Position numbers and translations under genes: made by a program. A model generated the notes under the pieces. That model saw nothing but the letters and a program-made list of their open reading frames with translations. It had not been told where the DNA came from and ran no database searches. Positions 25,827-34,857 of a DNA stretch of 64,000 nt are shown piece after piece. The DNA is from Nitrosomonas sp. Nm132 (GTDB lineage: Bacteria; Pseudomonadota; Gammaproteobacteria; Burkholderiales; Nitrosomonadaceae): assembly GCF_900100485.1 (NCBI RefSeq), contig NZ_FNDH01000004.1:1-64000 (forward strand). The letters run 5' to 3'. Position 1 is the first letter of the stretch; every line of letters starts with the position of its first letter.

Positions 25827-26954
25827 TTATAGTCGCATCGGCATTACAACATATTTAAAATGATCATTCCCTGGAATGGTAATCAAAGTACTGCTATTGG
25901 CATTTTCAAAAGCACATTGAACGTTATCACTATTGAGATTATTTAGTACATCCAATAGATAAGTAATATTAAAACTAATATCAATAGTATCCTGGTTATA
26001 TTCGATTTCGAGATCATCTTGAGCTTCTTCTTGTTCACTATTCTTGCAAACAATACTCAATGTGCCGTTTGAAATAATCAGTCTTACACCACGAAACTTT
26101 TCACTTGCATTGGAGAGGATGGCAACTCGTTGCAATCCTTGCAGAAAATTCAAGCGATTTATATTGAATTGCTTAGTATTATTTTCAGGAATAGCGCGAT
26201 TGAAATCGGGGAATTTCCCTTCAATGACTTTGGAAAACAATACCGTATCAGAAAAGTCAAAGCGTACTTTTTTTTGAAAGATTTCTATGATAATAGGTTT
26301 TTCACTATCAACAAGTAACTTTGAAAGTTCCAGCACTGTTTTCCGAGGAATGATGGTTTCCTTTCTCTCCCATTGATCTTCCAATTCAATAGAAGCATAG
26401 CCAAGACGATGACCATCGGTGGCGATCACTTTTAGGTGCTTACCTTCGACTAACAGTAATAAGCCATTTAGATAATAGCGAATATCCTGTTGTGCCACTG
26501 CATATTGGACCAAGTGCAGAAGATTTTTAAATTCTTGTTGCTGAAGTGTCAGTGTGATCTCAGGCACGTCCTCTTTAGCCATTCTCGGAAAATCATCTGC
26601 AGGAAGTATTTGCAGACTGAAGCGGCTTTTCCCCGCGTTTATTTGTAGTCTATTTTCGCGTTTTGTTAAGGTAACTTCAGTATTAGAAGGAAAAGTACGC
26701 AGGATATCTAACAGTTTTTTTGCTGAAACGGTGACTGCGCAGAATTCCTGAACGACTAATGTTTCAGTACCTTGTGAAGTTGAATACGTTTCGATTTCTA
26801 TTTCGAGATCAGTGGTTACAAAAATAATTTTTCCACTCTCTTCCTTGATTAGCACGTTGGAAAGTATTGGCAAGGTATGGCGCCGTTCGACAATTCCACT
26901 AACTGCTTGCAAAGGTTTGAGCAAAAGATCCCGGTTGGCTTTTATTAAATTCAT
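25827..26954 (-). CDS. dnaN: DNA polymerase III beta sliding clamp
   Basis: This is the processivity clamp of the replicative polymerase. The 375-residue protein has the three-domain DnaN layout. It begins MNLIKANRDLLLKPLQAVSGIVERRHTLPILSNVLI and contains ATDGHRLGYASIELE. It ends in the family C terminus (DHFKYVVMPMRL), which forms part of the peptide-binding cleft. It lies 204 bp from dnaA, with a DnaA-box inverted repeat in between. Confidence 0.97.
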   Translation of the reverse strand: MNLIKANRDLLLKPLQAVSGIVERRHTLPILSNVLIKEESGKIIFVTTDLEIEIETYSTSQGTETLVVQEFCAVTVSAKKLLDILRTFPSNTEVTLTKRENRLQINAGKSRFSLQILPADDFPRMAKEDVPEITLTLQQQEFKNLLHLVQYAVAQQDIRYYLNGLLLLVEGKHLKVIATDGHRLGYASIELEDQWERKETIIPRKTVLELSKLLVDSEKPIIIEIFQKKVRFDFSDTVLFSKVIEGKFPDFNRAIPENNTKQFNINRLNFLQGLQRVAILSNASEKFRGVRLIISNGTLSIVCKNSEQEEAQDDLEIEYNQDTIDISFNITYLLDVLNNLNSDNVQCAFENANSSTLITIPGNDHFKYVVMPMRL

Positions 26955-27072
26955 ATTTTAAACTTTAATAATAGTATATAAATGCAGGTCAATTCCGGTA
27001 TATCTCTAAAAATAGATTAAATATCAATCATCTGAATAAAATTTCTGCCCGGTATAAGATGACGACTTGACT

Positions 27073-27134
27073 TGAATAATTTGTGGATAAAATAAAGCAA
27101 TTACTTTTATTTCGAGTTATCCACAAATTATTCA
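27073..27134. promoter_or_regulatory. Inverted pair of DnaA boxes, candidate origin element
   Basis: TGAATAATTTGTGGATAA (27073-27090) and its exact reverse complement TTATCCACAAATTATTCA (27117-27134) form a perfect 18-bp inverted repeat with a 26-bp AT-rich spacer. Each arm contains a consensus DnaA box, TTATCCACA (27082-27090 on the minus strand, 27117-27125 on the plus strand). It lies between dnaA and dnaN. Possible roles are part of oriC, a DnaA-controlled site regulating dnaN, or a hairpin in the dnaA-dnaN transcript. These are not mutually exclusive. Confidence 0.7.
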
Positions 27135-27158
27135 GATTTTTCTCACAAGCTATCGGCA

Positions 27159-28535: not shown

Positions 28536-28630
28536 AGGTGGAAGATTCTAGTTAATCTGAAATTTATTTTAAACTGCAATTTTTTCATGGGGTATTCTAC
28601 ACTGTTGTTTGAAGACGCGCCGAAACCTCA

Positions 28631-28665
28631 TTTCTAATTATCAATAACAGATTGATAATTAGAAA
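28631..28665. repeat. Perfect 15-bp inverted repeat upstream of dnaA
   Basis: TTTCTAATTATCAAT (28631-28645) and ATTGATAATTAGAAA (28651-28665) are exact reverse complements separated by AACAG. The core TTATCAAT resembles a weak DnaA box. It lies about 100 bp upstream of dnaA, so it could be an operator, an origin element or a cruciform-forming site. Confidence 0.7.
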
Positions 28666-28731
28666 TAAAATCAGGGTATTTCCACTTATAAAGATGAAAA
28701 TGGATACCAGATTTTTGGGAGGTCACTGTTT

Positions 28732-28740
28732 TGTGGATAA
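28732..28740 (-). promoter_or_regulatory. Consensus DnaA box
   Basis: TGTGGATAA here is TTATCCACA on the minus strand, an exact consensus DnaA box about 200 bp upstream of dnaA. It could act in autoregulation of dnaA or in oriC. Confidence 0.65.
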
Positions 28741-28914
28741 CAATAGTATAATAGAGGACTATTGATTTAGTCTTTTTTCATGTGGTAATCAGTTTGCTTC
28801 CCCTGTTATCAATATCTTGTTGATCAAAAACGAAACCGCTTCTCGAGTCTTGCTGCCAGTGCTCATGACAGCTGAACGAAATTCTGATTTAAGAAAACAT
28901 ATAAGGAATTGTTG

Positions 28915-30183
28915 ATGAGCTTGGATGTCAGCCCAATATCAACATCCTTACAACCTGCCGTCCATACACAGGGACTGGGTAAATGTTATCAGCTATACGC
29001 ACAACCTAAAGATCGTCTGAAGCAGTTCCTATGGCGGGGAAGACGCCGATATTTTCGGGAATTATGGGCGCTACAAGGAATCAATCTGGAGATCATGCCG
29101 GGCGAAGTAATAGGAATCATTGGTCGCAACGGTTCGGGTAAATCAACTCTGTTACAGCTCATCTGCGGCACATTAACACCAACCTGTGGCGAGGTACGGG
29201 TAAATGGGCGTTTAGCCGCCTTACTGGAGCTAGGAGCTGGATTCAACTCAGAGTTTACCGGGCGTGAAAATATCTGGTTGAATGCTGCCATTATGGGGTT
29301 GACCCAAGAAGAAATCGCAGATCGGATTGAACAAATTATCGATTTTTCAGAAATCAGGGATTTTATTGATCAGCCGGTCAAAACCTATTCGAGTGGAATG
29401 TATGTGCGATTGGCGTTTTCAGTAGCGGTGAGCATTGATCCTGACATTCTGATCATTGATGAAGCACTTTCAGTCGGAGATGGTTCATTTGCACGGAAGT
29501 CGTTTAATCGCATCATGCAGTTGAAGGAAAGTGGCAAGACGATCTTGTTTTGTTCCCATTCGCTTTTTCAAATCGAGTCGCTGTGTTCTCGGGTGCTTTG
29601 GATCAATCAGGGCAAGCTTATGGCAGAAGGAGGTGCAAAGAACGTCGTGTCAGCTTATCAGACGTTTTTAGACAGAAGTGTACTGGAGACAACCGAGCAA
29701 GCCTCTGCCCCCGAAGAGGAGGTTGTGTCGGCTAATTTGCCCCATACTGGCGGATATGTATACGGGCATGCGCGTCTAGATAAAATAGATATTCAGATAG
29801 ATGGGGGAATGGACAGTAACGCTATAGTCAAAAGTGGTCAATCAACAGTTGGGGTGAAAGTATCGTTTGTTTCCGATCCCGCGGTTCCCTGCCCAACAGT
29901 TGCGGTTACCCTCCATGCCATGGATGGGCGGATGCTGACAAGTGCCGCTACCTGGGAAGATCATGTCACGTTGCAGCGTACCTTGAATGGATCGGGGCAG
30001 ATTAGTATTGCTTTTGAACAATTGCCTTTACTCAAAGGGGAGTATTTAATCAGCGTCTATTTGCTTTGCGAGCAGGGCATACACCTCTATGATTCAGCAA
30101 ATGGTGTAGCTACCTTACGTGTACAGCAGGAAGGCAGGTTACAAGGCTATTTCGCAGTACCACATACATGGCAAGCCAATTAA
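28915..30183 (+). CDS. Wzt-like polysaccharide ABC transporter ATP-binding protein
   Basis: This is the ATPase of an ABC exporter for O-antigen or a similar glycan. ATG at 28915 is used because AAGGA lies 7 nt upstream; a TTG two codons earlier is less likely. The 422-residue protein has Walker A GRNGSGKST (about residues 70-78), signature YSSGMYVRLAF and Walker B ILIIDEALSVGD. A C-terminal extension (about 260-420) resembles the Wzt carbohydrate-binding domain that recognises the finished chain end. The membrane partner Wzm is not in this window, which is odd because the two are usually adjacent. It overlaps the next gene. Confidence 0.88.
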   Translation: MSLDVSPISTSLQPAVHTQGLGKCYQLYAQPKDRLKQFLWRGRRRYFRELWALQGINLEIMPGEVIGIIGRNGSGKSTLLQLICGTLTPTCGEVRVNGRLAALLELGAGFNSEFTGRENIWLNAAIMGLTQEEIADRIEQIIDFSEIRDFIDQPVKTYSSGMYVRLAFSVAVSIDPDILIIDEALSVGDGSFARKSFNRIMQLKESGKTILFCSHSLFQIESLCSRVLWINQGKLMAEGGAKNVVSAYQTFLDRSVLETTEQASAPEEEVVSANLPHTGGYVYGHARLDKIDIQIDGGMDSNAIVKSGQSTVGVKVSFVSDPAVPCPTVAVTLHAMDGRMLTSAATWEDHVTLQRTLNGSGQISIAFEQLPLLKGEYLISVYLLCEQGIHLYDSANGVATLRVQQEGRLQGYFAVPHTWQAN

Positions 30184-34749: not shown

Positions 34750-34857
34750 AACTATACTCATCACACTTCAAAATTTGGCAGCTATACCTTCTCCCGCTGG
34801 GAGAAGGTCGGATGAGGGATTATAAAAACCGAATTTTGAAGTGTGATGAGTATAGTT
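34750..34857. repeat. 108-bp inverted-repeat element with REP-like core
   Basis: Arms of 29 bp at 34750-34778 and 34829-34857 are reverse complements with one mismatch (outer part AACTATACTCATCACACTTC). Between them lies a short hairpin, CCTTCTCCC-GCTG-GGGAGAAGG in effect (CTTCTCCCGCTGGGAGAAG), followed by GTCGGATGAGGG. Stem-loops of the type ACCTTCTCCC...GGGAGAAGGT are widespread intergenic repeats in proteobacteria. The terminal repeats suggest a MITE-like unit. It overlaps the apparent start of the HAD gene. Confidence 0.75.

Follow-up and report, generated by a model that had tools for sequence, protein, structure and literature searches.

The gap between dnaA and dnaN in Nitrosomonas sp. 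Nm132 contains a perfect inverted repeat that carries a DnaA box in each arm, and it raises the question of whether this symmetry belongs to a replication origin, to DnaA-dependent control of dnaN, or to a hairpin in the transcript. We examined the repeat within a 64,000-nucleotide stretch of DNA (hereafter 'the window') and in relatives of this strain, of which the nearest named one by its DnaA protein is Nitrosomonas sp. Nm33 (93% identity). The coordinates of all features are collected in Table 1.

The inverted repeat and its DnaA boxes

The two arms, TGAATAATTTGTGGATAA (positions 27073-27090) and TTATCCACAAATTATTCA (27117-27134), match as reverse complements at 18 of 18 bp and are separated by a spacer of 26 bp; each contains one exact TTATCCACA DnaA box. 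A perfect 18-bp repeat with two consensus boxes in the dnaA-dnaN gap, as first described from the letters of the window, was thus borne out. The same description had the boxes facing each other; they in fact both point outward, with their ACA ends directed away from the spacer. Three perfect inverted repeats with arms of at least 14 bp (and loops of up to 100 bp) are present in the window, among which this one ranks second in length, whereas the longest such repeat in 20 dinucleotide shuffles of the window measured 14 bp and occurred once. Arms identical to those of the repeat were not found in 84,980 species genomes searched, a set that possibly does not include the window's own genome.

Table 1. 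Features of the dnaA-dnaN region, with positions in the window
Feature	Position	Strand	Evidence or remark
dnaN	25827..26954	-	NCBIfam TIGR00663, E 3e-87
dnaA-dnaN intergenic region, predicted oriC, 204 bp	26955..27158	.	GC skew sign change; DnaA boxes kept in 80 genus members
DnaA-trio-like run ATACTATTATTA, candidate unwinding element in AT-rich stretch	26966..26977	-	Genus trio score raised
Box-like ATATACCGG, weak candidate (4/9 matches)	26995..27003	-	Place where several other Burkholderiales have TTATCCACA before the trio-like run
Box-like TTATACCGG, offset 33 of 11-bp-pitch array	27049..27057	-	Offset 33 scores 5.2/9 in relatives
Weak DnaA box TTATTCAAG, offset 11, 2 bp beyond strong box	27071..27079	-	Mean match 6.1/9 in 71 genomes
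Strong DnaA box TTATCCACA, dnaN-proximal	27082..27090	-	Consensus exact in 70/80 genomes
AT-rich 26-bp spacer	27091..27116	.	Length kept across genus; mean GC 26%
Strong DnaA box TTATCCACA, dnaA-proximal of inverted pair	27117..27125	+	Exact in 23/80 genomes, one mismatch in 53/80
Weak DnaA box TTATTCAGA, offset 11, 2 bp beyond strong box, outer arm part	27128..27136	+	Offset-11 peak in relatives, dnaA side
Third box-like site TTTCTCACA, offset 22 (6/9 matches)	27139..27147	+	Offset-22 peak 6.5/9 in 19 relatives long enough to score
dnaA	27159..28535	-	NCBIfam TIGR00362, E 6e-174

Nine bases of each arm had been taken to lie beyond its box. Mean matches to TTATCCACA on the dnaN side in relatives are 8.9, 6.1, 4.3 and 5.2 of 9 at offsets 0, 11, 22 and 33, as against roughly 1-3.7 of 9 at offsets outside this array; on the dnaA side they are 8.1, 5.0 and 6.5 of 9 at offsets 0, 11 and 22, the last of these from 19 genomes. 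Because the box matches peak every 11 bp outward, the bases beyond each strong box are better described as a 2-bp linker and the larger part of another DnaA box, a weaker one (TTATTCA..). Both arms are therefore double DnaA boxes, in the sense of a tandem pair 2-3 bp apart of which one member is near consensus. The DnaA protein of E. coli prefers to bind boxes 2 or 3 bp apart (PMC11317965), and each 18-bp arm resembles the E. coli double box in comprising a strong and a weak box with 2 bp between them; unlike the E. coli example, two doubles are here placed as an inverted pair inside a predicted origin.

With arms of 26 bp, the repeat at 34750-34857 is the longest perfect inverted one in the window; it encloses the short repeat CTTCTCCCGCTGGGAGAAGGTCGGATGAGGG, which occurs in 26 genome copies at up to three mismatches (none in a reversed control) and perhaps represents a small dispersed repeat family, REP- or MITE-like. 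A second, facing pair of boxes elsewhere in this genome (C79:7431-7484) differs from the present pair in spacing, shares no arms with it and lies in DNA that is richer in G+C and resembles coding sequence; it was set aside as a chance occurrence.

The dnaA-dnaN gap as a predicted origin

The layout of the box pair was counted in 80 genomes of the genus, the genome of the window included. The pair is outward-facing in the genus, and the gap between its boxes measures 26 bp in 66 genomes, 27 bp in four, 25 bp in one and 37-38 bp in nine; the spacing thus lies at 25-27 bp in 71 of the 80 and is one 11-bp turn wider in the other nine. Divided by 11, the gap leaves a remainder of 4 or 5 in 79 of the 80 genomes and in every pair found among 18 members of the family and 18 of the order; since these genomes share ancestry, the common register is to be read as conservation and not as a series of independent events. 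The best pair in other Nitrosomonadaceae and Burkholderiales is found at 26-27, 37-38 or 48-49 bp, and because the search takes the best box of an array, such one-turn steps show which array member is strongest. The single mismatch in the dnaA-side strong box is mostly at its fifth base (80 genomes), and a strong box is weakened in some near relatives (the right box, TCATTCGCA, in L010; the left box, TTATCCTCA, in L011, L013 and L014). Conservation of both arms and of their spacing had been proposed as a check on the repeat: both boxes and the spacing are conserved, but the perfect symmetry of the arms is absent outside this genome.

An exact DnaA box is present in 97.5% of the 80 dnaA-dnaN gaps from the genus, and at least two boxes within one mismatch are present in 96%. 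Intergenic clustering of DnaA boxes, as expected of a bacterial oriC, is accordingly seen at this gap, and the gene neighbourhood (dnaA, dnaN, then gyrB) also fits a bacterial oriC. Within 400 bp upstream of dnaA, by comparison, an exact box occurs in one of 79 genus regions, that of the window itself (28732-28740). With nearly no boxes there in the genus, an origin upstream of dnaA was rejected.

The GC skew of the window is negative on the left and positive on the right and switches at approximately 25.5-28.5 kb, with a flat and broad cumulative minimum (~3 kb) that extends from about 25.5 to 28.1 kb. Most of 19 other genomes (20-40 kb around dnaA) change skew sign near dnaN or a few kb from it, several of them with noisy profiles, and in some relatives from this sample the minimum lies several kb off the gap. 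The inflection that had been named as a further check is therefore seen at the dnaA-dnaN gap, as a broad minimum that varies among relatives. Of the roles first offered for the repeat, that of a core of oriC is well supported, by the change of skew sign, by boxes and a register kept across about 80 genomes of the genus and also outside it, and by the nearly box-free upstream regions. The literature searched yielded no experiments on a Nitrosomonas origin, and the region may already stand in DoriC as a prediction.

Toward dnaN the AT content is mostly 70-93%. The trio score of the genus in the last 60 bp is 4.9, compared with 3.1 in shuffled sequences and 2.0 in the adjacent stretch; the order sample gave 3.7 versus 1.9 in shuffles, and enrichment was absent from the family sample (2.75 versus 2.97). 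The run ATACTATTATTA contains four trios (score 6) and has the composition of a trio element in a basal unwinding system, or BUS (at least three trios, the central A corresponding to T on the complementary strand, GAT-rich). Several relatives from the order have TTATCCACA 12-14 bp before the trio-like run, an arrangement that resembles the basal unwinding system (PMC8287927), and the BUS pattern of a box with no more than two mismatches within 16 bp of the trios was found in L099, L107, L121 and L122; the corresponding site in the window matches at only four of nine positions, and Nitrosomonas genomes have TATACAG or TATACCG at that place.

Symmetry, hairpins and the control of dnaN

The nine outer bases match from arm to arm at all nine positions only in this genome (one of 76 distinct arm pairs; mean, 5.6). 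If the two arms varied independently, each according to its own column frequencies, the probability of such a match would be 0.0075 per genome, which corresponds to 0.48 expected in 64 genomes. Complementarity is lost at the fifth base of the left box in 43 of 68 genomes, with the right box still consensus, and arm bases 16-17 are also unpaired in many genomes. The proposed selection for symmetry or hairpin formation is unsupported by these counts, and we read the exact match of the 18-bp arms as two similar half-sites that happen to coincide rather than as a hairpin under selection. Permutation within clades gave 5.88 versus 5.69 outer-arm matches of 9 (p 0.0005) at a cut of 0.15, and p 0.33 at a cut of 0.05. 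This excess may arise because the two half-sites follow one and the same protein, or through a correction of near-palindromes; its small size lends no support to a conserved hairpin.

Symmetry that is actively maintained, whether because selection favours a symmetric DnaA complex or because template switching corrects near-palindromes, would account for the excess seen at that one clade depth; the effect, however, amounts to ~0.2 base in 9, disappears in the tightest clades, is absent from the box itself and emerged from several tests, and the fit is equally good if the two half-sites have co-evolved with one DnaA protein, so that we regard active maintenance as unlikely. We find it very improbable that the arms were selected as a hairpin in a dnaA-dnaN transcript (a terminator, attenuator or RNA-stability element). 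The window RNA does fold strongly (-24.1 kcal/mol, z -5.0), and the median relative folds better than its shuffles (z -2.7), but inverted boxes are complementary by definition and RNA folding is therefore expected, while the outer bases are fully paired only here and the broken fifth base recurs in most relatives. The repeat showed no T-run terminator and matched no Rfam family; it conforms neither to an intrinsic terminator (a G+C-rich stem plus a T run) nor to an RNA hairpin with conserved pairing. Since pairing is not conserved, the reading as an RNA hairpin or terminator was rejected, and the transcript hairpin of the original prediction is left without support.

It is also quite improbable that DnaA acts here mainly as a regulator of dnaN transcription, with the origin elsewhere, for example upstream of dnaA. 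The boxes do lie between the two genes, and a dnaA-promoter box that is conserved in other families is missing from Nitrosomonas, so that control could have moved; against this, the upstream regions of the genus are nearly box-free and the skew switches sign at the gap, the multi-box array with its 11-bp pitch and AT-rich end resembles an origin rather than a simple operator, and promoter-like sites are no commoner in the region than in shuffles. DnaA-dependent control of dnaN is possible as a side effect. The explanation we prefer, with a probability of roughly 0.85, is that the dnaA-dnaN gap is the chromosomal oriC and the repeat its DnaA-loading part, with two divergent oligomers and a coincidental symmetry.

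The region upstream of dnaA was compared between relatives L099-L145 and the window (28536-28740). In 17 of 19 other Nitrosomonadaceae a lone exact DnaA box, TGTGGATAA, precedes the dnaA start by 76-100 bp, near an apparent promoter, and most relatives from the order have a box within one mismatch upstream of dnaA; at the same place, the 79 Nitrosomonas genomes have no box of fewer than two mismatches. It seems that a likely dnaA self-control site was lost in the genus. The exact box of the window ~200 bp upstream of dnaA (minus strand) occurs in this genome only and is not conserved. Between dnaA and a divergent gene for a polysaccharide-export-like ABC ATPase (28909-30183, plus strand) lies a 16-bp perfect inverted repeat with a 5-bp loop (28630-28666), which the closest relatives lack. 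Many Nitrosomonas relatives, judged by eye, instead have a panC-like gene reading into dnaA, and the differing neighbour would seem, on that inspection, to mark a rearrangement at the border of the origin.

A model of DnaA loading and its relation to known systems

From the positions, register and conservation of the boxes and from the skew, all of which are read directly from the sequences, we infer how nucleation, outward extension and melting might proceed. DnaA would sit on the two strong boxes, back to back across the fixed 26-bp spacer, and would from there recruit DnaA-ATP to the adjoining weak sites, giving rise to two divergent oligomers. The oligomer on the dnaN side would then reach the AT-rich, trio-like stretch beside dnaN and melt it. 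We regard the locus as a predicted origin that belongs to a known kind but has an unusual, apparently helically locked layout.

By analogy, the closest system in place and plan is incC of Bacillus subtilis (PMC6669920), the unwinding region that oriC has there in the dnaA-dnaN gap. Like incC and the BUS (PMC6669920, PMC8287927), the Nitrosomonas region lies between these two genes, with DnaA boxes grouped distally and a trio-like run at its far end. Nitrosomonas differs from these systems in that the strong boxes form the distal inverted pair, ~100 bp from the trio-like run, and the box beside that run is degenerate. The oriC of E. coli has two oppositely oriented low-affinity arrays between the strong boxes R1 and R4 (PMC4285127). 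Strong boxes as likely nucleation sites and weak sites in two opposed arrays are common to both, but the Nitrosomonas arrangement is inside out, with the strong boxes in the centre at a distance of 26 bp and the weak sites extending outward; E. coli oriC, moreover, does not adjoin dnaA. A dedicated experimental study of betaproteobacterial origins was not found in the literature searched. We tentatively suggest, as a doubtful extension, that Burkholderiales might share such an 'inside-out' orisome, with back-to-back strong boxes at a gap of 26 + 11n bp and two divergent DnaA filaments, one toward an unwinding site on the dnaN side and the other into the end of dnaA.

The repeat illustrates that a striking perfect palindrome can come from ordinary protein-binding half-sites. 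The analysis places the predicted replication origin of Nitrosomonas, a genus of slow and experimentally difficult organisms that are important as ammonia oxidisers, and offers for betaproteobacterial origins a conserved, testable layout of double boxes, an 11-bp pitch and a gap of 26 + 11n bp.
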